From Ophiura sarsii (taxonomy: Eukaryota > Echinodermata > Ophiuroidea > Amphilepidida > Ophiuridae), in contig CM069449.1 of assembly GCA_035610835.1 (NCBI GenBank), positions 41,089,098-41,153,097 on the forward strand: a DNA stretch of 64,000 bases, given 5' to 3'. This document shows positions 3,784-62,569 of this stretch, in pieces. The notes under the pieces are model-generated. The model was not told the DNA's origin. It saw only the letters and a list, made by a program, of their open reading frames with translations, and searched no databases. The number at the start of each line of letters is the position of its first letter. Positions within the stretch are counted from its first letter, which is position 1. Position numbers and translations under genes: made by a program.

Positions 3784-4069
3784 ATTACTGAGTAAATGGC
3801 CCCTAGAGAGCTTAACATGCAACCAATTGTCTTCGCATTTCTGGATTTGATTCAAGACATAATTGCAATTTAGCTGTTACAAAACTGATATTCGACCAGT
3901 AGGCCTATCACCTCATAGAGCCACACAGCAATTAATTAAGTATGTAGGATAGGTGTTTTACATAACTTGAACTCCTGATTTGGATGTTAAATTTGACGTG
4001 CTGAGCTATTTATTTTATTGTACGCGCCCATAGAGATCTATGCAGGCGCGAAGCCAGGTGGTGGTGGGT

Positions 4070-4102
<33 letters not shown>

Positions 4103-4116
4103 GGGGGGGGGGGGGG
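4070..4116. repeat. G homopolymer, 32 G then T then 14 G
   Basis: The longest homopolymer of the window. Glycine- and proline-rich ORFs across it are artefacts. It can form G-quadruplexes, and its assembled length is doubtful. Confidence 0.95.
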
Positions 4117-5399: not shown

Positions 5400-5423
5400 C
5401 CCCCCCCCCCCCCCCCCCCCCCC
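5400..5423. repeat. C homopolymer of 24
   Basis: An uninterrupted C run followed by further C-rich sequence up to 5515. Confidence 0.95.
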
Positions 5424-5852
5424 ACCCACCCCTCTTTAGGGTTTTCAAAACTCTTTTGACAACCTCCCCCTTTTTGGAGCTTCAACACTTGTTTGATCCA
5501 GGCCCCCCCTCCCCACCCTAAGATTGTCCAGAACGCTCCCTTATTATTTCCCAAAATAGAGCAAACTAGCAAACAGTGCCTATGTATCGAACCTCGGTAA
5601 AGGGCCGCGGAAGGATGAAAGGAAATAATTGAATGCCGACACTTTGGAACCCGGTACTATTTCTTAACGGAATAAATCTTATTGAATACTGGAAACAATA
5701 CCAAACCATAGCTCATTCTTCGGCTGCCCTTACTTGAATCTCTATGTATCCATGACCAGTTTACATTGCATCTGACAGGTCCCTCTCGGCATTCTTGTAA
5801 ACAAATCATTTTCTAGAAACACCGAATTTACAGAAATTTCATTGCACGCAAA

Positions 5853-5950: not shown

Positions 5951-5997
5951 ATGATGATTAGTCCAGAGGAACAGACATGGCTGGAACTGCAAGAGAA
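5951..5997 (+). CDS. Exon 1 (start codon) of the 513-residue gene
   Basis: This exon encodes residues 1-15 and two bases of codon 16, beginning MMISPEEQTWLELQE. It ends at a GTGAGT donor (5998) in phase 2. It was chosen as the first exon because an in-frame stop lies 18 nt upstream and because its phase joins exon 2 without a break. Either of the two adjacent ATGs could be the initiator. Confidence 0.72.
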
Positions 5998-8900: not shown

Positions 8901-11900
8901 ATACCAGTGACAGTTACTGCATGTCACTGCTGATACCAAATTATCTTGATGTGAAAAAAAATCATAGCCCAAAAAAGTGATTGGGTCATACCCAGCCCTC
9001 AAATTAAGAAATGGAAAGGGCAATGCAATTGCAGGCAATTTGAAAAGGACACCAAGGCAATTACGTACTTTTCAATGGAGTAAAAACAGCCAGAAGTTGA
9101 GGGCATCGAGGCAGCTAGGTGGGGCACCGACGGCAATTGCCTTCGGTGCCTTCGGTTAATTTGAGGGCTGGTCATACCTTTTTAAAAGTTGTCTCATCTA
9201 GATGTCGCTGATTTCTCTGAGAACCAATGAGATTGCTTAAACTTTCTTAGCTGTTTAAGAGTGATTAATATAATACATTGGGCTCCACCACCTGAGCCTC
9301 CACCGTCACCTGAGCTGCCACCACCTGAGCCGCCACCCCTGCTTTTTCAGATTCAAACTGCTGTTACGTACTCTCTTATTTAATTTCAAATTTTAATGAC
9401 ATTTCTTACAATTATAGACTCGATTACTCTCAGCTTTAAAATGATGCATCAACCACCTCAGTTTATAATATTTTATTGATGAAAAAAAATGTAACACAGC
9501 CACACTTTATGCATGCCCACCTTATGACATGCGACCTGTTAGTGATTTTCGCACTACGGGATTTCCATACATTCTGTGACGCATCCAGGTAAAGTGACTG
9601 ACATTGATCATCATTCCAGTATTTATGCATTGAGGTAGCACACCACTAAATAATCTTCACCAAGCCCGGGAAACCCGTTCCCAACTTTTACTATGATACA
9701 ATAAATACATTTTGCCCCCACTATATCTCTGGTAGTGGTAATCTTTTTCGAATTTCGGCCTTTAAATGGTATCAAATTAAAGAGGACGGCGTCTTCGTGT
9801 ATAATAATTACACAAGAGTTTATGAAAATTAATTTGCAAATGATTGTACAGGCGATGACTACAGGAACGAGCGGCTCCAGTGAACAGTGTTTTAGGGCGG
9901 TTTTCTGTTCATTTTATAGCATAAATGCGTGCAATGTAATGTAAAACTACGCGGTCAAAGTTTCTGTAATTTCATTTATTTTTAGGTATGGTATTCATGT
10001 GTTCTTTTGATAGGCTGAAAATCAGACAATTATGCTGGTTCAAATCAAAAATACCGCCCTCGACTGGTTAAAATGCTTCAATCGCGTGTATGATAGCATG
10101 ATCTGGCCACTGTGACGGTCATGTAGTACTGTGTTCGGCTTTTATTCCACACAAGTTGACATCATATTTTATCCACATCTGGTAACAGACAAAATTCCCA
10201 GCTTTAATTTGATGCCATTTTCAAGTCTAAACTATTAGCCGAGATATGGTTCAAAGAAACATGCACATTTATACATACAGTTGTGAAAGGTATCACGGGT
10301 TTTTCTCCGGAACTATTTAGTGACGTGCTACCATGATGCAACCATTCATCAATAGTGGGAATGTGACTGACCAAAGGCTGCCATGCATACGGTACCCTTC
10401 ATCAAGATTTTTTTTTTTTAAATGACCCACCCATGACGCACCCTTCCCGGGGGCGGGGGTAATATAGTGCGTCACAGGTGCATTATGGCGAGGACCTTTA
10501 TAATCAAAATATTTACTTTGTAATATCTCATGCAGTTTAAGAAGAATAAGAGACCAATATTCGAGACTTAGCACCGGTAGTAACCATGGCAACAAGGTAG
10601 ACAAATACAGGAAAAGATCCGGTAACTTGAAGCAGGAGGATCACAACCATTACAGGCACCAGAAACATTCGCCAACATTACCAAAGTAAGGTTAAGCTTA
10701 AAGCAATATTATGTGTATTTTGTATATAATTTTTTGTTTCTCTCAAGTTTATATCATGGACTATCTTGAGTGTATTTTTAGGAAATCTGCTTCCAATAAA
10801 TTAAGCATTCCCCACTATTTTTTTATTTTAATTGTGTTCACTTGTGTACAGTTGCAATTGCAACTATAGCCAGTTGCAATTGCAACTATAGCCAGAAGCA
10901 TTGTGAACAACAGTGTCAAACCATGGCATTCTATTTATGAACGAGAAAACCCCTCGGAAAATGAACTGTCCCATCCGATAACTTATTTTCAAATTTTTTG
11001 GAAGTAATTAGGAAAGACACATTTAAGTTTTATGTTTACAAACAATGTTTGTGTACTGTCATTTGACCAAAAACTGCATTTGTATGTATTAATCAAAGAT
11101 AGAGTGCATTCCATGAAAAAGATTATAATATGCCTTTAAGAACAAATTTCAGTTAGGATGGGGGTGGGATTGAAGGTGGAGGGCCAGTTGGTAAAGAGGG
11201 GAGGGACTGTCCGGAAGGAATGAGGGAGGGATATAATTCCAATGTCCAAGGTTCATATAGCCAATACAGCCAATGTTTTAATTCTTTAAAATTAATGTTT
11301 GTTTTATTTAGATTACAAGATGGAAGCCAATCTTCACCTACTAATCTGAGAGGGAGCCATTACCCAGTTATCCCACCATTATCAGCTGATAGGTAAGTCA
11401 TAGGCCCAATGGAGGGGAAGGGTCACTACATGTACCAATAACCTGAGAGGGAGCCATTACCAGCCCTCAAATTAACCGAAGGCACCGAAGGCAATTGCCA
11501 TCGGTGCCCCACCTAGTTGCCTCGATGCCCTCAACTTCTGGCTGTTTTTAATCCATTGAAAAGTACATAATTGCCTTGGTGGAAGTTGGTGCCCCTTTCA
11601 AATTGCCTGAAATTGCCTTGCCCTTTCCATTTCTTAATTTGAGGGCTGGCCATTACCCAGTTATCCCACCATTATCAGCTGATAGGTAAGTCATAGGCCC
11701 AATGGAGGGGAAGGGTCACTACATGTACCAATAACCTGAGAGGGAGCCATTACCCAGTTATCCCACCAGTATCAGCTGATAGGTAAGCCACAGGCCCAAT
11801 GCAGGGGAAGGGTCACTACATGTGCCAAAAACCTGAGAGGGAGCCATTACCCAGTTATCCCCCCATTATCAGCTGATAGGTAAGTCATTGGCCCAATGGA

Positions 11901-14900
11901 GGGGAAGGGTCACTACATGTACCAATAACCTGAGAGGGAGCCATTACCCAGTTATCCCACCATTATCAGCTGATAGGTAAGCCACAGGCCCAATGCAGGG
12001 GAAGGGTCACTACATGTGCCAAAAACCTGAGAGGGAGCCATTACCCAGTTATCCCCCCATTATCAGCTGATAGGTAAGTCATTGGCCCAATGGAGGGGAA
12101 GGGTCACTACATGTACCAATAACCTGAGAGGGAGCCATTACCCAGTTATCCCACCATTATCAGCTGATAGGTAAGTCATAGGCCCGATCGAAGGAAAGGG
12201 TCACTACATGTACCAATAACTGAGAGGAAGCCATTACCCAGTTATCCCACCATTATCAGCTGATAGGTAAGTCATAGGCCCGATCGAAGGAAAGGGTCAC
12301 TACATGTACCAATAACTGAGAGGAAGCCATTACCCAGTTATCCCACCATTATCAGCGGATAGGTAAGTCATAGGCCCGATCGAAAGGAAAGGGTCACTAC
12401 ATGTACCAATAACTGAGAGGGAGCCATTAGCCAGTTATCCCACCATTATCAGCAGATAGGTAAGTCATAGGCCCAATGGAGGGGAAGGGTCACTACATGT
12501 ACCAATAATCTGAGAGGGAGCCATTAGCCAGTTAACCTACCATTATTTCAGCTGATAGGTAAGTCATAGGCCCAATGGAGGGGAATGGTCACTACATGTA
12601 CCAATAACCTGAGATGGCGGCTCGCATCGGGGAGAGCGGGCGGCGGCGGCCATCGAACCAGGCTTACTGGTACTGCTTTACTGAAGGACGCCGTGGTGAA
12701 AAATGTTGTTGTGCAGCTCTACGGTAATTGAAAAGGTGGGCGCTTATAAGGGATTGTTTGTTGGTAGTCATTGAGAAAAACAGGGGTGGGTGATTAAAAG
12801 GGCATGGGCGCTTAATAAGGATAATACGGTACATGTAGTATTGTGATGAATTTAGCTTCAGGCGACAAAAAAGAAACGCCCTGTTCTATGGGTGGACGGA
12901 ACCTCTGAGGTTTGGTCCGTCAATCCCCGAGGGGTTACTTACGCCAAAATCGTACGTGGATGTGCCTGCCGGACTTCGAAAATGTGACTTTCGCTATACC
13001 TATTTTTTGGCAATTTCCCACCCATCAATCAATATACCAATTTGGTAAGAAAAGCACCCAATTTTGCACAAATTGGGTGCTTTTTACCAAAAATGCCTCA
13101 AAATACACCCAATTTATGCCAATTGGGAGCTTGAGTCTGTGATGAAAACCACCCCATCGCTATACCAATTTTTGCGAAAAGGCAGGCACATATATACGTA
13201 TACCATATCAATGTGAGAACCCCCCACCCCCAGGGGGGTCAATCATGCTTTCTAACTCTCTCTAGTCTCTCTTCAAAAAGTTTAAAAATCAGGCCCATAG
13301 AACATTATTTATTTTGTCGCATAAGCATCACATATCTATTAATATTAGGCCAAATAAAACATATTCATGTTTAGCATCAAGTGGCTGTCATTTTGAAAAA
13401 AGCAGAACCATCTTGAACAATATAGCCTTGCCAGCTATCTTGACAATATGTGTCGGGTGGCCAATTTGGAAAGAAAAAAAAGGGCCTCCTTCCTTATTTT
13501 CAAAAAGGCAGGACGCTAAACATTTTTTATTTTTTATTTTGCCTTAAAACTTTATGAAAATGTAGTAGTTTTTACTTTTGGACAGCCTGTTGTATCGGGT
13601 GCACTTTTTAAGCTCCCCCAAACTGTGTAAACAAACGCCTTTCAGAAGTCCAAGAAGCCATCCATGTACCTGTTTCCCATGAAAAATATAGTAGCGAGTG
13701 GCAAGCCTACTTTAGGCATTTGACACAGTGTGGAGGACCCAATTATTAGTGATTGCTGTCCAAATCTACACCTTCATAAATTATATACTGTAAAAGTGGA
13801 AATTTCGCGCGGTTACATTTTCACGCTTTGCCGACTTTCAGCCATTTCACTTGTTTTTAAATTCGTGATTTGAAAGTTCATTACATAGACTTATTACACA
13901 AAATAAATATGTTTGTGTGTTTTTATTTTCTCGGTAGCTGCTTGGAGCACAAAAATTAATGTAGCGCGAAAATGTCCATGTTAGGGAAGTGTCAACCCTA
14001 TTATTTTGATAATCAAGTTTGAGAATATTGAATAAGTACATAAAAGTATACATTTATAGAAAGGAAATTTGATAAGGAATCCGATGGTGATATCAATGTG
14101 CTACCAAAAATAAATTTTGAGAAATGAACCAAAAAGCGATTTTTTATTTTTTTTACCCCAAATTTTTCAGACAGCATTACTAAAAAATAAAAAATGGTAA
14201 TTTGTTCTTATACATTTTTGTAAACAAGACAATTTTGTCTAGGAAGCAATTTTTTCTTTTTCCAAAATAAGTCTTAGTTTTGGAAATATTGCTAAAAACA
14301 TCGGAAAAATGTAAAAGTTGTGTTATTTTGCAAAATGGCTGCATATCTCGAGTTTAAAATCCATAATCGAAAAAATTAAAAATTGTCTCCTATAGCGCTG
14401 AAAGTCATCTACACAATGGTAGTAAAAGCTTACCTGATAGTTTGATAACTTTTTTAGTTATGCTGTCTGAAAAATCGTAAAATTCCTTCAAATTTGAACT
14501 TCTAGAAAACAGCGATTTAGTAAAAATATTGACATTTTCCACCATTTAAAAGCTAAATGTTGTCGGGATACACAGGCGTGTGACCCGAAAGGCGAGTATA
14601 CTATTATAAACAATTAAAATAAACTATCAGATTCAATTTATATTGTCACAATATGAAGAAATTAGAAGAAAACAGAAAATTTAAATGATTGTAAGATTGG
14701 CATTTGTTTACATTTGTAGACATTGTTTTGCGCTCTTTTGTTTTCGCGTCTACGTCACGGATATTAAGCGGCGCGTCTAGTGTTACGCACGGGAAGATTC
14801 AGCGCGCGACGCAATGATCGAATAGCTGTCACAGCATTTGAAAAGCGCGGAACTCCGCTTAATTTCCCGCCAAATAACCTTGCGCCTTTTCGCGACTCAA

Positions 14901-17900
14901 ACTTACCAAAACAACATTTTTAAATCACCCAAAAGAACGGGAAATAATCGCTTCCGATTAATAACTTATGATGGTAATGATAAAATACATATAAAAGTAT
15001 AAAATAATAGAGAAATATGAAATTTAATTTTTGAAACAAGTGCCGGGTTGACACTGCCCTTAACAGTAGTACTGTGTACTAAGATCAGTACAATCATCTT
15101 TAGCACTATCACTAATATTGACCTTTCCATATTGCTTAATTGCCATCATTAGATGGATCGAGGGAGAATCGTGACTGCTAATTCATGCCTTAATTGACTG
15201 GTATAGCTTTCCGCATGACTTTACACAGGCTTACTGGAAATATTTGCGTGTTTTGGTCAAGGTTAGGTTGGTTGCCATAGATATAAGAATACAGAAGCGC
15301 TTTATAAATTGTGTGATATATATGCATCGTTTTGATGCATTGATTTCCTTTAATCACAAGTCACAATTTCTTGAAATACTATAGAAGAATTATAGTTTCA
15401 CATATATTTTGGGGGATGTCCTCAAAATCACAAGATAGGTATTCTTATTTATTTATTTTTTGTTACCTGGTTGCTAAGTAAAAATGTCGATTTTAAGAAA
15501 AATATAATACAGCAATTTCATAAAATCTCACATGTCCTTATTTATTTTGAAGAAAAGACATATTTTGGAAAGCACTGTAAGATATTATCAAAAGTATTGT
15601 TTTCAGGCAAATGAAAAAATTCAAAAAAGCACTAGAAATGTCTTTAGATTATTATGGTGCAATTTTGGCATTTTTTTTACCAAAAACTGATTTTGTTTCG
15701 TTGTCCGAAAAGTGAGCCAAACAAATCAGCATTTTTAAAAAATGTATACTTTTATATATCACATTAGAGGTGTGTATGTTCCGATCACATTTTTTGGACT
15801 ATGATTTTTTTTTCACATAAAGATATTTTGATATCAGGAGAATTCCCATATTTTTCTCATTATGTCTGTAAAATCTTAGGGGCCAGAAATGTTCCATTTA
15901 GAAATTATAGGCTGAAATGTGGTGAATTACTGCCAAAGGTGGTGAACCACCAACCAGTTTGTGTTTACTCAATGGGCAAATATTTTGTGACCGTGTCCCA
16001 TTGGAGTTATGCAACTCAAACTTTGGAATGCGACAATTTGAAGGATAACCTTTCATGCAAAATAGAAAACACCAAGTTAAAAATTGGCCCAGCAATCGGA
16101 ACATCTACCTTTAATAGTTCAAAAGAAGCGCTTGATAAATTTCATATTTTGGGGGTTAAAACCCCCCTTAACCCTAATAACCTCCTACCCACATTTTCCT
16201 AGGATTTTTTTTCAATGAAAAAAAGCATGGACAAAAAGACTGGCCACGCCCCCGGGGCTTGAACCCACAACCTCTCAGTTGAGAGACGATGAACGCCTCG
16301 AAAAAGTGCCACGCCAGCTTGCACAGACGGACTGCACCGTGGCACTGGGGTGGTTAGGGTCAGCCTCCAAATTAAGAAATGAAAAGGGCATGGCAATTTC
16401 AGGCAATTTGAAAGGGGCACAAGGCAATTATGTACTTTTCAATGGAGTAAAAACAGCCAGAAGTTGAGGGCATCGAGGCAACTAGGTGGGGCACCGATGG
16501 CAGTTGCCTTCGGTGCCTTCGGTTAATTTGAGGGCTGGTTAGGGTTAATGCTGGGGGGGGGGGGGTACTTTCACCAATATTGTACGTGGATGTGCCTGCT
16601 GGACTTCGACAATTTGACTTTCTCTATACCTATGTTCGGGCCAATTTTCCACCCATCAATATACCAATTTTGTTAGAAAAGCACCCAATTATGCACAAAT
16701 TGTGTGTTTCCTCAAAATACACCCAATTTATGCCAATTGGGCGCTTTGGTCTGTGATGAAAATACCCCATCACTATACAATTTTTTTGCGGAAATACAGG
16801 CCCATATGGCTCATTCCATGAAGTTGGGGCATATTATGTGACATCCAAGTGAAATTTTCAAAATGGATATTTTCCAACTCTTTCTTCTTTTTTAGGTTCT
16901 ACATTTACCAAAGTCCAATGTAGAACTTTTTATTTTAATGTAACATTTGGTGTAAAATAACCGCACATGTTCAACAGTTGGATGACATTTCCAAAAATCC
17001 TGATGCTACATGGACACCATTTCTCATTTCCATATCATTTTCTAATAAAATAGCTTAAGATGTGGGCCAAGTTTCTATACCTCAATTAACTACTTGGAAC
17101 CACAAATACATGAAAAGAAACCAGATTTGTCTAGGTTGAACATAACTTAACGAACAAGACATCGTAGATTAACTGTTTTATGTAAAAACTCATTGAAAAG
17201 TGACTCTTTATTTTGCAATTTGTATAATGAATTTAAATAAAGTACATATCAATATTTGTTTGATGTAAAGTACTCTATAAACCATGCACATTGATTACAT
17301 TATAGTCATAAAGTAAGTATATGAAGTATTATTTACCTGTATAATGTTATAAAATGCACTACCGATGCTACATGGACACCGCGTCTTGTAACATTGTTAA
17401 TAATAAGACTATTCATACTGTTACAATTATTTGAGTGTGAATGGTTTGTCTACTTGTTCATCATATCAAGTAGATACACAGAGTGAATTGCTTGAAATTT
17501 ATCTAAACACTGTTCATGTAAAATTTACCTTTTCTGTGTACTTAAGTATTACGATGCTACATGGACACCGTGCCCTAAAATATTTGGAACAGCTTGAACA
17601 GGTGCATCTTTTTCAGATCAATAGAGAGGATGTACTATGATGTTAACTTTTTATGTTATAAGCACACGATAAAATTAATAACATGGATTGTAAAACTACA
17701 AATTACACAAAAAGATAACCTGCCATGAAGCATAAAACATAATTACCTATGATACACATACACCATTTCTTACAATTACACAATAACAATACACCATTGA
17801 TCAAAGAAACTTAAGGTGTCCACTGAAACAAACTTCATGCAGTGTTGTTCTTAAAGTACCCTTTGTGATCTTAGTCTCTTTGCTTGTTTCTGATTGAATC

Positions 17901-23900: not shown

Positions 23901-26900
23901 TTGGCAATTTTTATTGTTAGAAAATTGGAAGAACTGTCTTATCTTGGGCAGGGATGTACTTTCGCGACATCCTGCGAGAATCCAAATGGATTCTCGCAGA
24001 GGAATTTTACGAGAATCCATGGATTCTCGCAAATGGATTCTCGCAGAATATTTTGCGAGAATCCTTTTTACTGAATTTAAATTCTGCATTTTAAATATTT
24101 ATTGTACTATTGTATACTTAGAAAATAATAGTACACAAATTGAATCAAACACTTCTTAAGTTTACACACAAGTTAACATGTCATCTTTAATGGTTATCTT
24201 TTTCTTTTCTTTCAGGTAACTAACAATATATCTGCACAGCAGATTTCAAAAACCAACTAAGAACAATCATCATTTTAATTTCAACTTGAACAGTTTAGAG
24301 TCAAATACCAGTCATCTAAGGTCCTGTTTTGAACTTGAGAAAAAAGAAGAAGAAAAAAGTTTTAAAATAAAAAATAAAAAAAATACTGTATATATATTTT
24401 GTTGTTGCGAGAATCCACCTGGATTCACACGGAAGTGATTTTACGCGAATCGATTCGCGGATTCGCGCCAAAAGTACATCCCTGTTGGGATCGACTAAGT
24501 GATAAATCTTCTGTGAAATTATGTCATGTTACTAATCCTGGGGCTACTTTACTGGTCTGGACATAAACATGTAAGCGTGTGTTCTTTGTAGAGCGCTAAA
24601 TGCTTCAATTAACCCTAACCTTCCTGGATACTACAAATCATGACAGTGCTACAATCTTGTACCGTGCATAAGCACCATCAATCTCGTGCCACGCGCAGCG
24701 CGTAGTTCAACTTGTAAAAACAAACTGAACCTCCCCAGTGTAGCTCAGTCGGTAGAGCATCAGACTTGCACACACGCCGTCTGGGGTTCAATCCGCGGCG
24801 CGTGCGGAGACTGATTTCCCCCTCAAATTTGACCCGTTTTTCTCCCCTGATAGTTTAATTCACAAAAACACGCCCGAGGAGTTAGGGTTAAATAAAATAA
24901 AATAAAATTCAAAATAATAATATTTTCATTTCTTTGTGTCCAAAATACAGTGACATGTCTCTGGACAGATTTGGTTTGGACAGCTACGATCTCAAGTATG
25001 AAGACTCACCACCTCTGCCCCCATCAGCATCCCCACCACCCTCACAGAGTTTTCAACTCCCTCTAACATACAATGGAACATTCCAAAAGGACTATCAGGA
25101 TACCAGACTTGAACCTACTAATAAGAGACATCGAGGACAGTCCATTTCTCCAAGAGGGAGTAATATTAGGACCGATGATCTGAAATATAATGTGCAATAT
25201 ACACCAAACCTAGAACAACGAAATCGGCCGAGAACAAAACAGAAATATCTGGTACTGACATCGAGTAGGACGCCCCCTGCGAAGCAACTGGGCTCGTTGC
25301 GTTCCCCGGACTATGACATCTGGAAGAATCAGAGATGGAATGAGTCGCCCAAGAACAAATTGAGTCTCAGAGCAGAGGGGGTAGATGATGACTTTATATC
25401 ACCAAGAAAATTGGCATGGCCGAGAGATAAGGAGCTAGAAAAACAAAGACAAGTAAGGTTAAGATAGCAAAATAAAAAATATTTCAAACATGTTTAAGCT
25501 TCCCCTTTTTTTTTGAGGGAGGGGGGGTCCTCTTCAATTTGTTTTCTTTATTTCAGTCACAACTTTTTTTTGTACAGGTGTTTCAGAGTTTGAAACAAGT
25601 TTTGTTGTGACCAACCCAGGGTCCGCATTAAGTGTTTAGCAGTGCAAAATGCTCCTCAATCCTCATATTTTGCTACACAATTTTGGAAATGTATAGCAAT
25701 TTTATGCCACATGTTTGTTTCCATACAAAATGTGGCAAATATTTCAAACTGCAACTCATCAAGCAGGTTTTCCTATACAAAATCCTAGAAGGCCTGCTCC
25801 TCTTAAAGATTCGCAGTTTATCGCTATAACAAGGACAGTTTTGCACTTAAACTTATTTTTAAAAAAGATAAAGGGTCTCCTACTTTTTTTGAAAAAGTCC
25901 ACACACTAAACATATTTTGTCTACTTTGCCTTATTTTCAAGTGCATGTGCCTGAGCTGCCGAGCAAGCTGATTTATGAATAATCTTGCAGAAAAAAAATC
26001 ACCTAGAAAAAAAATCCCAGAGATAAGTTTTGTTTTGCTGTGACCTGGGTTCTACCTACAGTAGCACAAAATACTGATGTTCAAAGAGTTCTAGTTAATT
26101 CCGTAATACGGTAATACACTTTGGGCTACGGGCTACCAAACCTCTTTTGAAGGATTAAAATCACTAACTCGACACCGACAGACAGCCTAGTCCAGTTGTA
26201 TGATATTCGCTTTGGGAATGAAAGGTCCTGGGTTCAAATCCCAGTTGCATCACATTTTTATGTTAAACCATTGCTATCAATTATTTTTAAAGTTGGAATG
26301 GTAATTCATGATAGCTTAAACTCATACCATATGTGATGCGATCTGAGAAAACCCGTCGGATGTCGCAAAATGTGAACTAGGGTTTATGGGTACAAAAAAC
26401 AAAAAAAACAAAAAACTTTTTTCTTTTATTAGATTTTTTTAAAGAAAATTAGTTTCCAGTACTTTGTGTCATCATCTTTCATGAAATTTCACCTTGACAA
26501 ACTTACTTATAAATAAGTCACTTTTATTATTAACCTTATTTATAATGTTATTATATTGAATTATGTATCTTTTTTGGCCTGTTTCATGATTTCTTGTTTT
26601 GTAGCTTTTGGTGACATCACAATCATCATTCACTCATAACTTTTTTGCAGTGATCGTAGAAAAATGATCGAAACAGTTCTGTAATCAGCACAGTTTTAGC
26701 TTTCTTATGATATAAATATCTCCAATATGAAAAATGCCACCATGTGGCGGGTTTTCACAGATCGCATCACATATTTTAAACACCCAAACTATGTTTTATT
26801 GTTCCAGATTTTGGCCATGCTAGAGCATCTGGACAGGAGAGATTTAGCCAATGAGTTCTTCAATGATTTCATCAGGGAATTCTTCGAGCATGAGATGATA

Positions 26901-32900: not shown

Positions 32901-35900
32901 ATATAAATATAAACTCCTCAAAAAAGTTTGGACACTTTTTCAATCACCATTTTCCCGGATATTTTGTAATGTATTCATATTGTGTTCCCTATCTATGAAA
33001 AGCTGATGTGTTCCTCTTTCCAACGATACCCCGCTTACTTTTTCAATGCTCAGTAACTTGCTTGAGAACGGAGTAATTCTGTCATACCCTTCACAGAGGT
33101 ATTCATAGTGCATGATTTTTAAGAACGACGCATACTACCGATGTAGGTGTGTAGGGTATAACAGAATTATGCCCTTGAGAACATTTGGGAGGTCATAATC
33201 TGAATGTGCCAAAATTGCCTCTATTTCGTGCTCTAAAGAACAACTGTGTTGTCTGATCACTGAAGTGTTTCATAAAACTACAGTGTAGAGTGATGATGCT
33301 CTATTGACCTTTGAGCACAAAATAGAGATGATTTTGGCACATTCAGATTGTGACCTCCCCATGTTCTCAAGCAAGTTGATGGGAGCTTAAACAATTGATT
33401 GCTACAAATGAGGTTTCGTTTGAATGAGGAACACATCAGCTTTTCATACAGAGGAAACACAATATTAATACATTACGAAATATCCGGAAATTTGGTGATT
33501 GAAAAAAGTTTCCAAATTTGTTTGAAGAGTTTATATTCCACATGGACTCCCTAAATGTAGCTTTTCATCAAGGCGTTGTGGTGTTGTGTGTGAGCACCTT
33601 AAAAAAAAAGGTGTGAGCGCCCGCTGTAAAAATATTAGTTTAATACAACACCTTTCCGCAAAAATGTGTTATGATTTGTATTGTTTTACGGAAGATTTTT
33701 CCTGGAAAAATCACGCTTCCTGATTGTTTGATAATGATGTCGTCATGATTAACCAGGAGACAGCATCGATATCAAGTGCATTCTTTAAACGTTGTCGTCA
33801 ATAGAATTAGGCGGAGTTAATTATCTTGTGTTATGATGACTATATTGTTTGATCGACACATAATGCTTACACAGTAGCATAGCTATTTGCGCAAAGACAT
33901 CTCGCTCCTCAAACAGGGACATTGAGATTGATTAACGCTAAGGCGACAAAAAAAGGAAACCCTTGTTTTTTTATTACTTTTTCCCTCTTGAAAATGATCG
34001 TAAAAATCAAACAAATCTGTAAAAAACCTTGCCTTATTTTGATTAGCCCAAAAACATATTTGGGTCAGTATTCATTTTGCACATGAACTTATTTTCGGTC
34101 GGGCCCTTACAACAGGCTTTCTGTATTTTGTCACCTGACTATAGTTCAATCAGTTCCAAATTTGAGAGAAAATATGCTGTTTTTATATCTCCATGTGGAA
34201 AAGTAATCCAAGCGTCTGCACAAGATTTTGGCCATATGCACGAGACTTTGGCTGATCGCACGCATTACCTTGGATTATTACAAGAAATTGCACAAATGCT
34301 AGAATCAAACCATCTCAGAAACTAATATATACTGATATATTTTCTTGTTGGTCTTTCACAGGTTGACAATCTAACATATCATATGCGTTTAGACAGCATG
34401 TTTGTAGATCACTTTCTTAGGATCATCACAAGAAATTTCACAAATGCTAGGATCAAACCATCTCAGAAACTAATATACTGATATATTTTCTCATTGGTCT
34501 TTCACAGGTTGACAAGTTAGCATATCATATGCTTTTAGACAGCATGTTTCTAGATCACTTTCTTAGGATCATCACAACAAATCAACAAGTTTGGAGTATG
34601 AATGAGGAGCTTGATAGATTTCTGGATGGTATGTATTTGTACTTACAGGTGTGTAGGTGTATGTTCCTATCACTTTTTTTGGCAATTATTTTTTTTCTCA
34701 TCAATTTCAAGATATTTTGATATCAGAAGAATCCCCATATTTTTCTCATTATGTCTGTAAAAAAGGGCCAGAAATGTTCCATTTAGAAATTATAGGCTAA
34801 AAATGGTGAATTACTGCCAAAGGTGGTTAACCACGCGGCAGTTTGTGTACTACTCCAAGGGCAGATTTCTTGTCATCGTGTCCTTCTAAAATAAGAACCA
34901 TTGGAGTTATGCAACTCAAACTTTGGAATAAAATATCAAGTTGAAAGTCGGGCCAGAAATCAGAACGTCTACCTTTAAAGGGCACACCATGCAATTTGTC
35001 AAGCAGTGTTCGAAATAAGTGGATTTCCGGGTGTCCTGACACCCAAAAAATGCGCCGGACAACCTAATTTAAGCTTATTGTTGTCCGTCGGACATCCATG
35101 TTTTTTTAGTGTAGAATGAATCTCATGTCTTGTTTTCTTGTTATTTTAATGATTCCTGATTTCGATGATTAAAAATGAAAGATCGCCATCAAAATTCATC
35201 ATTTGAATCGCAAATCCCTGGCGCAAATCAGTCTTATTTTATTCTGCAATCGTTTCATATCTGTATACCTTTCACATCGCGATCGCACATGACACCACTC
35301 AGTCACAGAACCATTTTTCGGCAGCTCGGGGAGTTAAATAGACTTTGTATCATTCATCGTGCACAAGTATCCAGTTCAGAACTTGACGGCCGACGCTATT
35401 ACCTTACGCTGTAGAAGTAGAGCTGTGCCATCGAATCGAGGATAATTATTATAGCGCATGCGCCTTGAGATACATAACCGCGAAACATAACCGAATGATT
35501 CACAGGTCATCGCCTCCACATATTATAGTATGCGTAGTATATTAAGTTGACCTTTTGAACCGTGTCTCCTAATTACGAGCTTCATTTATTAAATACCGCG
35601 TGGGAATTTGCGCAAATTTCTAGGTTCATTTAATAGCCTCGTGTGAGAGCTTCGCTTGCCTATTACAAATACGTATTTGGAACTGTGTTTTTTGAAACGG
35701 GTACAGATTTATCGCAGATTACTTTCGTTGTATTTGATCGTCAACAATAACACCACTTCGCTCTATCATCATGGCCAAACAAAGGTCTCTTTTCGAGTGT
35801 TTTGTGCTGCAGTACTGATTATTTGGTCCTTGTTCGTATTGGGGGTTTCAAAAACGGCGTAAATTTGCGAAATTACGATAATTTGTATTTACTTGATAAA

Positions 35901-47879: not shown

Positions 47880-49570
47880 AGTTCCACGACACTTATTCAT
47901 ACACTCTTAGTAGTGTCAAACCAATCAGAAAGCAATGCATTGAAAATGTCTAATGCACTCCGCGTGTGCAGTGTTCAATGTGCGCATCAAACCAGGGCTG
48001 TCAACTCTCCCGCATTAGGCGGGAGTCTCCCGCATAGACACTCTTTCTCCCGCACTCCCGCATAGCATATAAAATCTCCCGCATGAACAAAATTACCTCA
48101 ATTAAAGTGTGTATCAACACCTTTATACTAGCTTCCGTCGGTACATTTGCGATTTTGGGTACATTTGCGATTTTGACCATGCAATTTTCGTGCGGATTTG
48201 AGGAAAACATCATCCCTACCCCCCCCCCCCCCCCCCCCCCCCACCCCCCACTTATCAGGATTTCAGCTGCTGACGGGGAAAAAATTGTGCATGTTTTACG
48301 ATTATTTTTTTGAGTATGTATCTCTCCCTCCCAGCAAATCCCAAAAGTTGACAGCCCTGATCAAACTCTCTGTTTTGATTCTTGTTCAGGCATCGCGGGT
48401 TCGGCGATTTTGTTAGCAAACTCGTTAACATATTGTTTATTCATTATTACATAGAAGAAAATTATGCTCAAATTGTGAATTTTGATTTGTATAGTGTCAT
48501 GTATGAATTAAGGTCAATACATGCGATTTTTTGTTTCTCAAAAAATTAGAAAAATCATTACACTTGCGCAAATGTTGATATGCTCATAATAGCAATCCCC
48601 CTGCATGGTTGTGCCATTATTCACACATCAACATCAGCATGCATGTATTGATTTGTCTAATTTCTCTCGAAACAACACATACACATGTATTGGCCTATAA
48701 TTATATAAGGATACCTAATGATTAGTGTAATAGTCTTGGGCTCCGAAGGCATAAATCCTTTCCCCACCTTTGCATTTTCAAATACTGAAGTTCTACAATA
48801 AAATGGGAATGGTCACCCATTCTGATATTATAACCTAACACAAAAGTTCATGACAAAGTATATGTTGGCTAATACAAAATCAATAATCGGAACCAGAAAT
48901 TTGAGATACATGAAGTGCACAAATTCCTTTGCCGTAATTTGACCCCTCTTTCATAATTTGTTTTTTAATTGGCTGTGAAGTGGCCAAAAACAAAATAAAA
49001 ACAGAATTTCTGCATTTAGCATAGCTATTAATTTGCCCGAATGTTTGTGAGACGGACCTATATATTTTAGCCCAAGTGACCAGACCCAACTTTTTGTGTT
49101 GTATAAATAAAATATCTTCATTATAAAAAATCCTGTGATATGATATAATAAGGCCAATTAAATTGATTTGGTGTTTACTGTTTCCCACCTGTGGGAAATT
49201 ATTTGATTTTTATTTGGCATTTTCTTTAAAAGGACTTTCAATAGCTTTTATTTGCTACTTTCTGACTTTGATATAAGATATGATATAAACGAAGAACATG
49301 GTTGCATTGATTTGTCTAATTTTTCGAGAAACAAAACATACGCGTGTATGTATTGACCTACTTCATCCACGCCATTATACAAATAAAATTCACCTTAAAA
49401 ATTGGCGAACCCGCGATAACTGAGCAACGAATCAAAACAAATCGCATGACGCATTGAACGGCGCGCACACGGAGTGCATTAGACACTTTCAAAGCACTCC
49501 ACATATTTAAGTTTCTTGCTTTCTGATTGGTTCGACACTATTAAGAGTATGAATTATTTTCATAACATAA
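47880..49570. mobile_element. Long inverted repeat pair 47.9-48.4 / 49.4-49.56 kb
   Basis: The arms share CCAATCAGAAAGCAA, GTGTCTAATGCACTCCG and ATCGCGGGTTCG in inverse order, about 1 kb apart. Further inverted blocks near 48505-48560, 48650 and 49305 suggest a fold-back element. A hAT-like MITE has entered the left arm. Confidence 0.65.
47993..48359. mobile_element. hAT-like MITE, CAGGGCTGTCAACT ends
   Basis: CAGGGCTGTCAACT and AGTTGACAGCCCTG ends are flanked by ATCAAAC on both sides (7 of 8 bp). The interior has CTCCCGCAT repeats, a 23-base C-run and sequence shared with 1834-1965. Confidence 0.82.
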
Positions 49571-56700: not shown

Positions 56701-59700
56701 TGAAAATTTTAAAAAATAAAGTGAATAATAAGAATTTAGGAGTTATTTCACTCGTAAAATCTGAATGCCTTCATCAATTTTAATAAATTTTGTGTAATTT
56801 TAAAGCTAAAGAAAATGCTCTGAGAGCACACATCTGAATGCCTTCATCAATATTCAAATTCAAAATTGACATCACCTGCAAACGTCCCCACTTTTGATGT
56901 GCTGCATCACATATCGGTTTATACCCTGGGCTAGTTCAATATCCACATGATACAGACTAGTATATCTAATTGAAACGTGATCGTCTCTAATTTCCGTTCT
57001 TCTTCTTCATCCCCCACTTACAGTTGGGATACGCGTTACCTTATTACTACTGTAAAAGTGGTAATGATTCACGCTTTGCTGATTTTCAGCCCTATCGCTT
57101 GTTTTTTAAATTGGCGATTTGAAAGTTCATAACATAGACTTATATACAAAAATAAATATATTTGATTGTTTTTATTTGCGTGGTAGCTTTTGGAGCGCGA
57201 AAAGTGCAAAAAATTAATTTAGCGCAGAAATTTCCATGTTTACAGTATTATTTTACCTCTGCCAGACTGTCTTGCATGCCTCTAAACTCATGCAGCAGAT
57301 GCTCTAGTTGATTGTTGATGTACTTCTCACGGCTTGCAATCTTTTCTAACGTCCGACTAATTTCTTGATGAAGTTTGCTGAGGTGACCCTGGTTCAGAGA
57401 GAGATAATAAATAATGTTTGCAATTATGGATCATATTATTAACTCCTATTTACTCTAATTATAAAATGAAGTGCTAAAATGGTCAAATATGTGACCCAGC
57501 ACGAGTAAATAAAGCAAGTTGAGGGAAATATTGAGCTATTTATATCATGATAATATGCATTAAGTTAAGAGTCATTTGGTACCAAAGTCAATGTTATATC
57601 ACATTTCTAACCAAAGTTACTGATTATTGAAAATCACATTGTCTCAAAACATAAAAATACAAATTGTCAAGTTATGGGCATTGTAAGTTTTGTTTTTGTT
57701 AACAAATCAATGGAGAAAATGAAAATTAAATACCTCAAAATGTAGTTTAGCTCTTTATTTTCATAATTTAAATCGTTGGTATACAAGATATGTATAGAAT
57801 ATCAGAAATAAACTTTTTATGAATTTGAGTTATTATGTTCCACATTTGTGCTCTTAAATCAAATTAGCTACTGCCGCATTGAGCCTGAGCAGTTAATCAT
57901 GTTGGGTTACATAAGATTTTGATGCGAGTCCAAAATTGGTGAATGTTAAGCAGTGGGGAAAAGTTAGGCAGTGTAGAAAAATTAGCCACTAAGGCAACGA
58001 AAAAGAGAAACCCTGTTCTATGATCCCGACCGACCCATTTTTTTAGAAAGAAAATGTGGGTAGGAGGCAAATGAATACACACAAAAATATGTTTGGCTTG
58101 TCAAAAAACGGCAAAATATGTTTGGCTTGTCAAAAACGGCAAAATAATTGGGATTTGTGGGTGGGGAGGCAGACAGACCAAGCCAACCTGAGAGGTCAGT
58201 TTGCCCGTAGAACAGGGTGGGTGGGGGTTGTCGCCCAATAGGCAGTGCAGAAAGTTGGGCAATGCAAACAAGTTAGGTGGTACAAAAAATAGTCTGTACA
58301 GAAAAATTGACAATGTGAAAGACATATTACAGCTATGTTCAGCATTATAGAAAAGTCTATTAATTACAGTTAGGCAGCTGGGTAGGTTAAACACAAGTGA
58401 CATTGAAAGCTATTCATGTTTGTATAACTATCAGCTGACTGCCAACTACCATATTTTCCACATTTTTTTCCTAATTTGGTCATATTCTGGTAAGGTTTTT
58501 TGTGCCCAAACATTTCCATAATTTTAATTCCTAACTTTACTATAACACGCCCAACCATTCCATATTGACTGCCTAACTTTACTATAACACATCCAACCAT
58601 TCTATAATTACTTTACCATAACACGTCCAACCATTCCATAATTACTGCCTAATTTTACCATAACACGTCCAACCATTCCATAATTACTGCCTAATTTTAC
58701 CATAACACGTCCAACCATTCCATAATTACTGCCTAATTGTACCATAACACGTCCAACCATTCCATAATTACTGCCTAACTTTACCATAACACATCCAACC
58801 ACTCCATAATTACTGCCTAACTTTATCATAACACGTCCAACCATTCCATAATTTAGTCTTTAGCGATATCAGAAATATTCGATAATCGAAAATCGATAGA
58901 TCAATATCGAGGTTAATCGATTAATCGCCAATTATCCACTTCAGAAAAAATATCAAAACGTTGCCGACGGGTACTTTGATGTGCCGCGATATGCTCAATT
59001 ATTTTGAGGCATCAATCACTTCGCGGCATCAATCACTTTGCGTCAATCATGTCAATGATTTTAAAGAACTGCCACAGACAATGAAAATTATTGGGGCTAA
59101 GCAAACTAAAGGCTAGGCCTATCTATATTATATTATATAAGCCTTACCATAATTACTGCCTAATTTTACCATAACACGTCCAACCATTCCATAATTACTG
59201 CCTAACTTTACCATAACACGTTCAACCACTCCATAATTACTGCCTAACTTTACCATAACATGTCCAACTTTTCCATAATTACTGCCTAACTTTACCATTA
59301 CACGTCCAACCATTCTATAATTACTGCCTAACTTTACCATAACACATCCAACCATTCCATAATTACTGCCTAACTTTACCATAACACATCCAACCATTCC
59401 ATAATTACTGCCTAACTTTACCATAAACCGTCCAATCATTCCATTATTACTGCCTAATTTTAGCTTAACATGCGCCCAACCATTCCATATTTGAGGACCC
59501 TAGATCTAAAAGGGGTTAAGTCACATTGAGAAAAATGGCAAAAACTGGGTTTCATTGTGTCCATGTGTGGACTTGACGCACTCGGGTTGTACCTCCCATG
59601 GACTATTGCACAGCTTTACCACATGACTTTACTGTAACATTTGAACAGAGGGTGCAGAGATCCTCCTTGTAGCAGAAACTGATACTAACTACAATTTCAC

Positions 59701-62569
59701 AAGATTGTGACTTAAACCCCTTTTAGATCTAGGGTCCTCAATTACTGCCTAACTTTACCATAACATGCCCAACCCTTCCATAATTACTGCCAAACTTTAC
59801 CATAACACGTCCAACCATTCTATAATTACTGCCTAATTTTACAATACACATCCTACCATTCCAAATTATGCTCAAAGCGCATACATTTAATCCACTGCCG
59901 CTATAGGAAACATCCAAATCAGTCGCTTCACTAAGGTTTTGCTGCATATCATACAAATACTGATAATTACGCATATTCCTATTCGACACTTAGATTGCGA
60001 TTATCTCCAGACAGATACCCATTTTTATACCTGGGTGGAAAGAAGCAAATACTTAGCTTTGCAAAAAATCTATAATTATAATCAAGTAAAATTCTCAATA
60101 TATGTAATGTTCAACTTCTGCTTGATCGCGTCACAATTTCTACAGTGACTTCTAGTTTTCGATGTTTTGTCTAACTGTTCCTGTTTATTATTGCCTAATT
60201 TTTGTCTACAGTGTGCCAAACTCCTCAATAATTATTGCCTCATTTTCCCAAAGTGTGTTAAAGTTGTCCATAAGTATTTGCCAAATATTTCTCATGATCA
60301 TAACTTTTCCCTGTCTAAAGTGTAACTTTTTTCAGACTGTATCCAAGTTTTCCATGATTATGATTGCCAAACTTCAGTGTGCCTAAACTTTTCCACAATT
60401 GTTGCCTAACTTACTCATACTGTGTCCAACTTTTCAATCAATAACATTTCCATGACCTTTCAAACTTTTCTATAATATTGCTGAACTTTTTAATTAATAT
60501 TGCCTAACTTTTTCATGATATTGCCTAACTTTTCCATAATAAATATTGCCTTAAACTTTTCCAGAATATTGCCTGACTTGTCATTAAATATTGTTCAACT
60601 TTTCAATAATATTGCCTTACTTTTCAATAATATTGCCTAACTTTTCAATAATATTGCCTAACTTTACATTAAATATTATTCAACTTTGCTATGATATTGC
60701 CAAACCTTAAGTTGTTCAATTTTCAATAATATTGCTTAACTTTTCATTAAAATGTTGTTTAACTTTTTCAATAATATTGCCTAACTTATATTGTTCATAA
60801 TTAATTCTAAACTTGTCCATAGTGTGCCAGAAATGTTATCATTATTGCCCAACTTTTCCATACTGCGCCAAACTTTCCACATAAACATTGTATGGGGTTC
60901 ATTTACCTTAGTTTCTGATAATGCAGTATTGATCCCATCACGATGTGTATGCATTTGGTCTACATGAGTCCTCCAGTCTTTGTTATCTGTACGGATATGT
61001 ACTTTGAGTGATGGGGTAACACGTTCTACTTCTAATTTCCATTCATTGGCATCCACGGTAGATTCCATAATCTCTTCTGGGCGAGAAGCATCCATTGCAT
61101 CCTGTAAACAAAGAAATTTAAGCTTTTAATAAGATTGAATTAATATCTTAATACTTTCCACGCGGCTATAGTTTTACCATATTCAAAACAGATTTGTCAG
61201 AAACCTTTCCCAACTTTCAAAGTCTATCTTAGGGATTACTGAACCAATACTAGGCATGTTTGTACTTATTTCAATGCATTTCTCATGGTGATTCCTAATA
61301 TGGTAATGAAATTCAATAATTGTGACATTTTTGAAACATTTTGTGACATTTTGGAATGTCGTCTGCAGACGCCTGACTCATGGAAAGTGTTAAAGGTTGG
61401 TGTTCCGATTTCTGGCCCGATTTTTAACTTGATATTTTCTATTCTACGTGAAGGGTCATCCTAAAATAGTCATATTCCAAAGTTTGAGTTGCATAACTCC
61501 AATGCCAAAGTTAGAAGCACAAGGTGACATGAAATTTGCCCATTTGGTAGTACACAAACTAGTCGGTTGGTTAACCACCTTTGGTGGTGATTCGTCGCAT
61601 TTTGGCCTATGCCGTCTAAATCGAACATATCTTGCACCTAAGATTTTACAGAAATAATAAGAAAAATATGGGTTTTCTTTTGATATCAAAATATGTTGAT
61701 GTAAAAAAAATCTTTAAAGAGAAAGGAACATACACCTTTAAAGGTAGATGACCCGATCACATTTTCGTAACACAGAATTATTTCAAACATACCGAGATTT
61801 TCATATCATATGAAAGCTCGTATTTTTCTCATCATCATACTGAAATTTGACGGCCTAAATCGGTATAATTACGGAGAAATCGATGAAATAACGTCGAATT
61901 ACCGCGAATGGTGGTAACCACCGATATAGTTTGTGTACTACTCAATGGGTACAGTTCACAGCATCTTGTGCGTCTAAAATAAGAACCATTAGAGCTATGC
62001 AACTCAAACTTTGGAACACGACTTTTTTAGGATGACCTTTTCATGTAGAATAGAAAACTTCAAGTTGAAAATCGGAATGTGATCGGGTCATCTACCTTTA
62101 ATTCATAAGTCACTTTCATTTGCATTTTTTACCCTGCCCATTATAAGACCGTTTGTGTTTCTTGTACGCATGTTCTCGGAGTAGCAGTGAACCAATTGAT
62201 TGGCCCATCGAAGTGCTTCATTGAGTCCAAGTGTTTGATTTCAGATCACTCAGTTCATTAACATTGTCAATGTCAGTTGGGCTATTGTTCACTTTGCTTA
62301 AAGGCCTGCCCCAGTGAAATAAAGAATCATGTACATTACAAATATTTCTGTGTAGCTATGGAGGTAAATTGTTTAATTGTCTAACTGTAAACTTAATCTG
62401 CATTCTTTTTTTAACAAGTAGCATTATTATGCAAATTGGAATTGTTTTGATACTCAAAGTGTTGTACACCACCATGATGAGATGTGTCCTTTACCTTCGC
62501 TGATTGTAGATTTCTAAGTCCTTCAAGATCCAAGAAACTCTCATCTTCATCCATGTCATCCTCCACTTC
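53613..62569 (-). CDS. IFT57: IFT57, C-terminal 233 residues (five exons), 5' part outside window
   Basis: Minus-strand exons are 62495-62569, 60907-61101, 57257-57388, 55580-55709 and 53613-53782. They join in phase to 702 nt including TAA. The peptide contains IRTDNKDWRTHVDQMHTHRD, ISRTLEKIASREKYINNQLE and GSSMTDGSPLVKIKQ, the signature C-terminal coiled-coil region of IFT57 (Hippi homologue). Known role: a subunit of intraflagellar transport complex B, which carries cargo along ciliary axonemes; in mammals it also binds HIP1. Vertebrate IFT57 is about 430 residues, so roughly the N-terminal 200, including the calponin-like domain, lie past the right edge. The gene converges with the plus-strand gene. 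No frameshift or missing segment is seen. Confidence 0.96.
53889..54030 (-). repeat. IFT57: TTAACCCTAAC element fragment in IFT57
   Basis: Begins TTAACCCTAACTCCCCC. A B-box-like segment (GAATCCGGGTCAGACC) is near 54000. Directly upstream of the terminal exon in transcript sense, within the intron. Confidence 0.55.
54640..54840. repeat. Truncated copy of the 32909 fold-back element
   Basis: Shares GATGCTCTATTGACTTTGGA and AACACATCAGCTTTCCAT with 33290-33440. Confidence 0.7.
54853..55530. mobile_element. Mariner-like MITE with about 200-bp arms
   Basis: Long inverted arms begin CAGGGTCTAAAAAAAATTAG / CAGGGTGTCTCAAAAAAATT, flanked by TA (54851-54852 and 55531-55532). A tRNA-like patch (GTGGGTTCGAGAAC) lies in the centre near 55120. 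It sits 49 bp from an IFT57 donor. Confidence 0.85.
55580..55709 (-). CDS. IFT57: IFT57 exon, coiled coil
   Basis: This 130-bp exon encodes AKEQYRQASGGVTERTRNLA and EEMEERGSSMTDG-type sequence, and leaves in phase 1 at GTAAGT. A mariner-like element ends 49 bp beyond the donor. Confidence 0.95.
55710..57040. other. IFT57 intron, no element resolved
   Basis: AT-rich intron. CTGAATGCCTTCATCAAT occurs twice (56760 and 56832). No exon is supported. Confidence 0.5.
57049..57247. mobile_element. ACTGTAAAAGTGG MITE abutting an IFT57 exon
   Basis: ACTGTAAAAGTGG at the left and TTTCCATGTTTACAGTA at the right. Matches 13790-13980. Its right end is 9 nt from the exon 57257-57388 boundary. Confidence 0.8.
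57257..57388 (-). CDS. IFT57: IFT57 exon, coiled coil
   Basis: This 132-bp exon of 44 codons begins GHLSKLHQEISRTLEKIASR and contains EKYINNQLEHLL, typical of the family. The donor GTAAAA lies about 10 nt from the end of an inserted MITE. Confidence 0.95.
57993..58234. mobile_element. Family C MITE, complete
   Basis: AAGGCAACGAAAAAGAGAAACC at the left and the inverted CCCGTAGAACAGGGTG...TTGTCGCC at the right, with CTGAGAGGTCAGTTTG. An inner 39-bp piece (ATATGTTTGGCTTGTCAAAA) is duplicated. Confidence 0.8.
58856..59142. repeat. Non-array insertion with ATCGAT-rich start
   Basis: A 287-bp stretch interrupts the minisatellite. It has several ATCGAT/AATCGA motifs near 58885-58930 and no visible TIR. 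Confidence 0.55.
59491..59741. mobile_element. MITE inserted in the 42-bp array
   Basis: Inverted ends of at least 30 bp begin TGAGGACCCTAGATCTAAAA. The array unit is interrupted at CCATA/ATTACTG. ATT flanks both sides. Confidence 0.82.
60907..61101 (-). CDS. IFT57: IFT57 exon, start of conserved coiled-coil region
   Basis: This 195-bp exon of 65 codons is bounded by TTTGTTTACAG and GTAAAT. It includes ESTVDANEWKLEVERVTPSL and TDNKDWRTHVDQMHTHRDGI, among the most conserved IFT57 blocks. Confidence 0.95.
61150..61393. mobile_element. Family B MITE, uninterrupted copy
   Basis: ACTTTCCACGCGGCTATAG at the left and CATGGAAAGTGTTAA at the right, with TGTCGTCTGCAGACGCCTGA inside. It lies about 50 bp from an IFT57 exon and gives the reference for the copy split at 42550. 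Confidence 0.8.
61392..62101. mobile_element. Two adjacent MITE family A copies (6 and 7)
   Basis: Copy 6 (61392-61740) is the common type. Copy 7 (61741-62101) is the CCATTCGCGG subfamily in inverted orientation. The same pairing of subtypes occurs at 44564-45270. Confidence 0.85.
62495..62569 (-). CDS. IFT57: IFT57 exon, acidic linker
   Basis: This 75-bp phase 0-0 exon reads EVEDDMDEDESFLDLEGLRN and five more residues. It matches the acidic linker followed by a FLDL-type motif that precedes the coiled coil in IFT57. The acceptor is TTTTTGTAG and the donor GTAAAG on the minus strand. Confidence 0.88.

Follow-up and report, generated by a model that had tools for sequence, protein, structure and literature searches.

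The window analysed here is a 64-kb stretch of the genome of the echinoderm Ophiura sarsii (64,000 nucleotides; assembly GCA_035610835.1, contig CM069449.1, positions 41,089,098 to 41,153,097), and our subject is a predicted plus-strand gene in it, the host gene, whose second exon appears to end inside a minisatellite, with the exon end and its 5′ splice site as the first of 11 near-identical copies. The features that bear on this arrangement are given below in window positions, with a slash marking the exon–intron boundary.

5951–5997, plus strand: predicted coding part of exon 1, from the ATG at 5951 to the donor GAA/GTGAGT; encodes MMISPEEQTWLELQE(K) and ends in phase 2
11312–11392, plus strand: predicted exon 2, 81 nt, with acceptor tttatttag/ATTACA and donor GATAG/GTAAGT
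11346–12608, plus strand: minisatellite of 11 units, with the working exon end as unit 1 and a 188-bp insert in unit 2
11461–11648, no strand assigned: 188-bp element in unit 2, with ends CAGCCCTCAAATTAA...TTAATTTGAGGGCTG and 8-bp repeats GCCATTAC at 11453–11460 and 11649–11656
11683–12567, plus strand: ten downstream donor copies, their last exon-like bases running from 11685 to 12558
12609–12614, plus strand: CTGAGA hexamer that closes the array, the same as the one at its start (11346–11351); likely junction micro-homology
24951–25452, plus strand: predicted exon 3, with acceptor aaaatacag/TGACATG, in frame with exon 2

The host gene

Joined together, exons 1, 2 (LRGSHYPVIPPLSAD) and 3 form an open, stop-free frame, MMISPEEQTWLELQEKLQDGSQSSPTNLRGSHYPVIPPLSAD-SDMSLDRFGLDSYDLKYEDS..., from the ATG at 5951. 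Introns 1 and 2 measure 5314 and 13558 bases, and further predicted exons run to about 36550. An initial guess at the exon 1 frame, MAGTARE, was dropped as phase-incompatible, and the possibility that exon 2 is an untranslated leader, with a start only in exon 3, is less likely, given that the exon 1 ATG joins exon 2 in phase. When compared with the assembly, the joined host protein gave nine matches, all at the host locus, and the gene therefore looks single-copy; none of these nine is a retrocopy or paralogue with which the junction between exons 2 and 3 could be confirmed. Pfam accepted no family for six open frames from the window, of which four hold host exons (a Saw1 match, at E 0.047, was below threshold), and found none at E 10 for the 489-residue joined protein. 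A search of the PDB with the host protein returned a single match, with an E of 0.17, which we attribute to chance, and a 473-residue query lacking exon 1 had no match at E 0.001 in a large protein collection (5828 candidates). The joined proteins have a surplus V where exon 6 meets exon 7 and an uncertain residue where exon 8 meets exon 9; neither flaw affects the model of exons 1, 2 and 3.

The donor array

A scan of the whole window for the donor string ATAGGTAAG (GATAG/GTAAG) found 11 plus-strand copies, all within 11389–12563, and no copies on the minus strand, while 100 dinucleotide shuffles of the window gave a mean of 0.15 copies and a maximum of 3. The last exon-like bases of the copies lie at 11392, 11685, 11782, 11879, 11976, 12073, 12170, 12266, 12362, 12459 and 12558, with consecutive spacings of 293, 97, 97, 97, 97, 97, 96, 96, 97 and 99 bp. 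A first-pass annotation of the window had claimed 11 such donors about 97 bp apart, and this was borne out, with spacings of 96–99 bp apart from the one of 293; the donor positions that it gave, 11393 to 12559, are exact when taken as first intron bases. The 293-bp spacing is made up of 97 bp, the 188-bp transposable element, which is absent from that annotation, and the 8-bp target duplication of the element.

Tandem Repeats Finder (TRF) reports a period of 97 with 10 copies and 93% match at 11649–12614. Counting the interrupted first units, the array holds 11 units from 11346 to 12608, each of 96–99 bp and each consisting of 47 exon-end bases (49 in unit 11) followed by about 50 intron-start bases, in line with the roughly 50 bp of coding-type sequence per unit proposed earlier. 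Pairs of units differ at 0–14 positions, and the array is thus a minisatellite in the usual sense of head-to-tail units of about 10–100 bp with high identity. It starts inside the exon, its unit includes exon 2's own donor, and the consensus donor GATAG/GTAAG is intact in all 11 units, as in an array of the IFI6 type (see below). Exon 2 looks real, and so does its donor as the first array member, as had been proposed, given the splice signals and the in-phase joining of exons 1, 2 and 3. A unit query against the 1.57-Gb assembly (1,573,662,873 bases) gave at least 11 matches, all within the array.

The 188-bp element has inverted ends CAG...CTG. From these ends and the 8-bp duplication we take it to be hAT-type, that is, a non-autonomous hAT-like element. 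Its insertion came later than the birth of unit 2, because its flanking repeat is array sequence. Two further copies, about 90% identical to it, lie at about 8993–9170 and 16361–16537, and all three copies have 8-bp flanking repeats.

Donor strength and choice

Nine of the 11 donors are the identical 9-mer TAG/GTAAGT, and the other two (11782 and 11976) have a C at +6. The energy of the duplex with the 5′ end of U1 is −10.2 kcal/mol for the nine and −9.4 kcal/mol for the two. These values place the array donors in the best 0.4–0.6% of the 3470 plus-strand GT 9-mers in the window, a set to which the array copies themselves belong. Of the seven other donors predicted for the host gene, only that of exon 5 (−10.3) is stronger; when the search pattern matched at two GTs, the GT at the predicted exon end was used for the energy comparison. 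The extra donors are, as had been claimed, near-identical and strong, suggesting that donor strength can hardly decide the choice among them and that position can. In human genes, near-equal donors with long flanking introns show a preference for the upstream site, and shorter exons are favoured (PMC9225289, as far as that account goes). With a short exon 2 (81 nt) between two long introns (5.3 and 13.6 kb), we predict from these human exon-definition data, with moderate confidence, that donor 1 is the main choice and the others leak. Strong distal use would not be the default expectation.

Outcome of distal donor use

Donor 1 lies in the context GCT GAT AG/G TAA GTC, and reading through the end of exon 2 adds R and then meets a TAA stop. 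When all ten distal-donor isoforms were translated, every one stopped after the same 43 residues, 289 to 1162 nt before the next junction, and none had an in-frame upstream ATG open into exon 3. The exon made with donor 2 is already 374 nt long, against 81 nt with donor 1. These results support the earlier proposal that choice of a downstream donor would keep array units in the mRNA. The argument attached to it, that most such isoforms would shift frame because 97 is not a multiple of three, fails: AGG TAA behind the donor 1 junction ends ten out of ten distal isoforms, and even the added lengths of 390 and 681, which are multiples of three, reach the common stop codon. With this common TAA, unit number cannot set the reading frame, and it could alter only the quantity of message lost. 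A stop far enough upstream of a junction marks a message for nonsense-mediated mRNA decay (NMD), and the ten distal isoforms are candidate NMD substrates, whatever the unit number. A protein with a later start, for example from the exon 3 Met, may also be made from them.

Selection, origin and turnover

Column, pairwise and substitution comparisons of the 11 units gave no good evidence of selection on the extra donors. The donor cores are intact in 11/11 units, but so is most of the unit alignment (78 of its 100 columns are invariant). Variable columns make up 9/49 of the exon part and 13/51 of the intron part (Fisher P=0.47), and the mean pairwise difference is 4.6% in the exon part against 9.2% in the intron part, in copies that are not independent. 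Among exon-part substitutions, 4/6 are synonymous in units 1–10 (binomial P=0.043), 3/4 in units 1–9 (P=0.056) and 4/8 when unit 11 is included (P=0.13), counts that were sorted by eye and post hoc, with the 2-base insertion of unit 11 left out, and that are not relied on here. In units 10 and 11 the exon frame is interrupted by a nonsense change.

The hexamer CTGAGA opens unit 1, within exon 2, and recurs at the array end, in intron 2 (12609–12614), and the sequences just upstream of the two, ACTAAT and AATAAC, are partially alike. Units 1 and 2 show no difference over 97 bp, the two-unit block of units 3 and 4 differs from that of units 5 and 6 at one of 194 positions, and units 7–9 form a third unit type. 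The 97-bp segment between the hexamers in exon 2 and intron 2 would have been duplicated first, and the array would then have grown by slippage or unequal exchange in one- and two-unit blocks; growth by these means between CTGAGA hexamers at both ends is the probable origin of the array. The identity of units 1 and 2 and the near-identical blocks suggest that the working exon end itself probably took part in recent copying. At a heterozygosity of 3.22%, the value given for Amphiura filiformis (PMC11310086) and perhaps not that of the host, about 6 differences in 194 sites would be expected between two random alleles, with a Poisson probability of 0.014 for one difference or fewer, and of 0.044 for no difference in 97 bp. 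If that heterozygosity applies, the latest expansions are probably younger than average allele divergence. Near-identical units suggest recent turnover, and the population is therefore likely to hold arrays of different lengths. The same pattern of identity would follow from conversion between units.

Other features of the window

A second duplicated splice site lies further along the host gene.

34272–34582, plus strand: 146-bp tandem duplication covering the exon 8 acceptor and exon start of the host gene, with exon starts at 34362 and 34508

Splicing to the upstream one of the two acceptors (exon start 34362) would bring a stop after 39 codons; in the predicted host gene, two boundaries thus have duplicated splice sites, and the extra copy is nonsense at each.

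On the minus strand, a frame at 60784–61125 encodes part of IFT57 (Pfam PF10498, E 1.2e-22), a ciliary transport gene. Arrays of 42–43-bp units lie at 58506–59489 and 60463–60787; the former has 23 copies and long open stretches on the minus strand, with repeats like VKLGSNYGMVGRVM. The window also contains 14 copies of an A/T-rich 39-bp unit (994–1559), a gap of 100 N (2540–2639), and C or G runs of 31–51 bases at 4066–4116, 5400–5432 and 48219–48249.

Discussion

We favour, at a probability of about 0.6, the reading that a locally born minisatellite covers the end of exon 2 and its 5′ splice site, and that it is mostly a tolerated by-product which adds splicing noise and probably varies in length. 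Exon definition would pick donor 1 in most transcripts; occasional use of a downstream donor would give a stop after 43 residues, and decay of that message would be expected. In the main, the array seems to be a source, possibly a variable one, of messages that fail. Several points weigh against this reading. No homologue was found in the searched libraries, and the predicted exon 2 rests on its splice signals, phase and open frame. The human upstream preference is moderate, at 60% of all near-equal-strength events in human genes, a figure that does not describe the long-intron class by itself, and without a strength filter the human set fits an intron-centric rule that favours the downstream donor (both as given in PMC9225289). 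Substantial use of distal donors may thus occur, and for NMD of their messages we go by the general distance rule, as an assumption.

If downstream donors were used frequently, the array could act as an expression rheostat, where more units would mean more messages with the common stop and less protein of unchanged sequence; this would be a repaired version of the earlier suggestion that allele length could tune expression. The donors are about equal in strength, any distal use is predicted to be nonsense, the units bear signs of recent turnover, human IFI6 takes two downstream repeat units as donor sites (PMC4526556, by its own description), and the unfiltered human events just mentioned agree with a downstream-favouring rule (PMC9225289). 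The equal-strength human donors that have long flanking introns, however, prefer the upstream site (PMC9225289, same account), and the donor 2 exon is already 374 nt long owing to the 188-bp insert, where shorter exons are preferred. We consider a rheostat unlikely. A further idea, in which the array is a natural, length-variable series of near-identical donors that gives the same null product at every choice but the first, and in which array length sets gene output, strikes us as less probable again. If it were true, individuals with different unit numbers would supply graded doses for the study of 5′ splice-site competition. In a bolder form of this idea, the AG/GTAAGT units would also serve as acceptors and be removed recursively and silently.

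The length of the array, or its existence, might also be an error of long-read assembly. Searches of the assembly with the unit and protein queries found no second haplotype for comparison, and the Amphiura filiformis assembly was made from nanopore reads and had its haplotypes purged, according to PMC11310086, a point that counts only if that is the host assembly. The array, however, is only about 1.27 kb, short relative to nanopore reads, and its units hold distinct variants in order, one of them with a clean insertion and target duplication; we regard such an artefact as improbable.

The AG/GTAAG units (AG/GTAAGT in 9/11) might, lastly, act both as acceptor and as donor in stepwise, message-silent removal of long arrays. 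Splicing from donor 1 to a later AG/GT would restore an identical junction, all nine plus-strand matches to YAG/GTRAGT in the window fall in the array, with none on the minus strand, and tandem AG/GT sites serve both ways in human UBC, as PMC10809524 describes them. We nevertheless give this reading very little credence, since recurrence inside one array is not independent evidence, the pyrimidine content before AG/GT is 0.56–0.69 against 0.62–0.81 at nine predicted host-gene acceptors (the two of exon 8 included), 13–41% of the other AGs in the window score as high, and another AG, 7 bases before the AG/GT, would compete with it.

With 11 near-identical donors in a single natural transcript, the array would provide a clean test of spliceosome choice among equal sites, where strength is nearly constant and position and exon length vary; the read-out is simple because every wrong donor stops at one codon. 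A working coding exon end has likely been caught in repeat turnover, and exchange within the array could in principle copy variants into the exon. Apart from donor competition and exon turnover, the array is an ordinary minisatellite.

The direct precedent is the human IFI6 (6-16) gene, where further 5′ splice sites are likewise supplied by the downstream units of a minisatellite close to the donor of exon 2, and the Ophiura array is a candidate for this already known architecture; the IFI6 unit, at 12 bp, is shorter than the 97-bp unit seen here. As PMC4526556 reports it, the IFI6 minisatellite supplies multiple exon 2 donors and three mRNA species (the original 1995 paper is cited there and in PMC2572611). 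Those three mRNAs encode protein isoforms, whereas the predicted extra donors of the Ophiura array all give one early stop. In human segmental-duplication genes, internal tandem repeats at exon–intron boundaries are described as modifying splicing and as often polymorphic (PMC2812944). These are also minisatellite expansions over an exon–intron boundary, able to change splicing, but in that description their units average 30 bp in 4 copies, the genes are duplicated and the new introns are supported by RNA, while the Ophiura array has 11 units of 97 bp in a gene found once in the assembly. In the account given of potato RdRp (PMC4974935), a tandem duplication crossing an exon–intron boundary, and likewise holding splice signals, made a new intron; that was a single duplication on the acceptor side, whereas the Ophiura array has 11 copies on the donor side. 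Human UBC, as described in PMC10809524, shares the regularly spaced AG/GT motifs in a tandem repeat. Its 228-nt units, however, keep the frame open and are removed precisely, while the Ophiura units, when retained, read into the TAA right behind donor 1 in 10/10 isoforms and seem to have a weak acceptor context. What sets the Ophiura array apart from these known cases is its unit size, its copy number and the predicted nonsense outcome of every extra donor.

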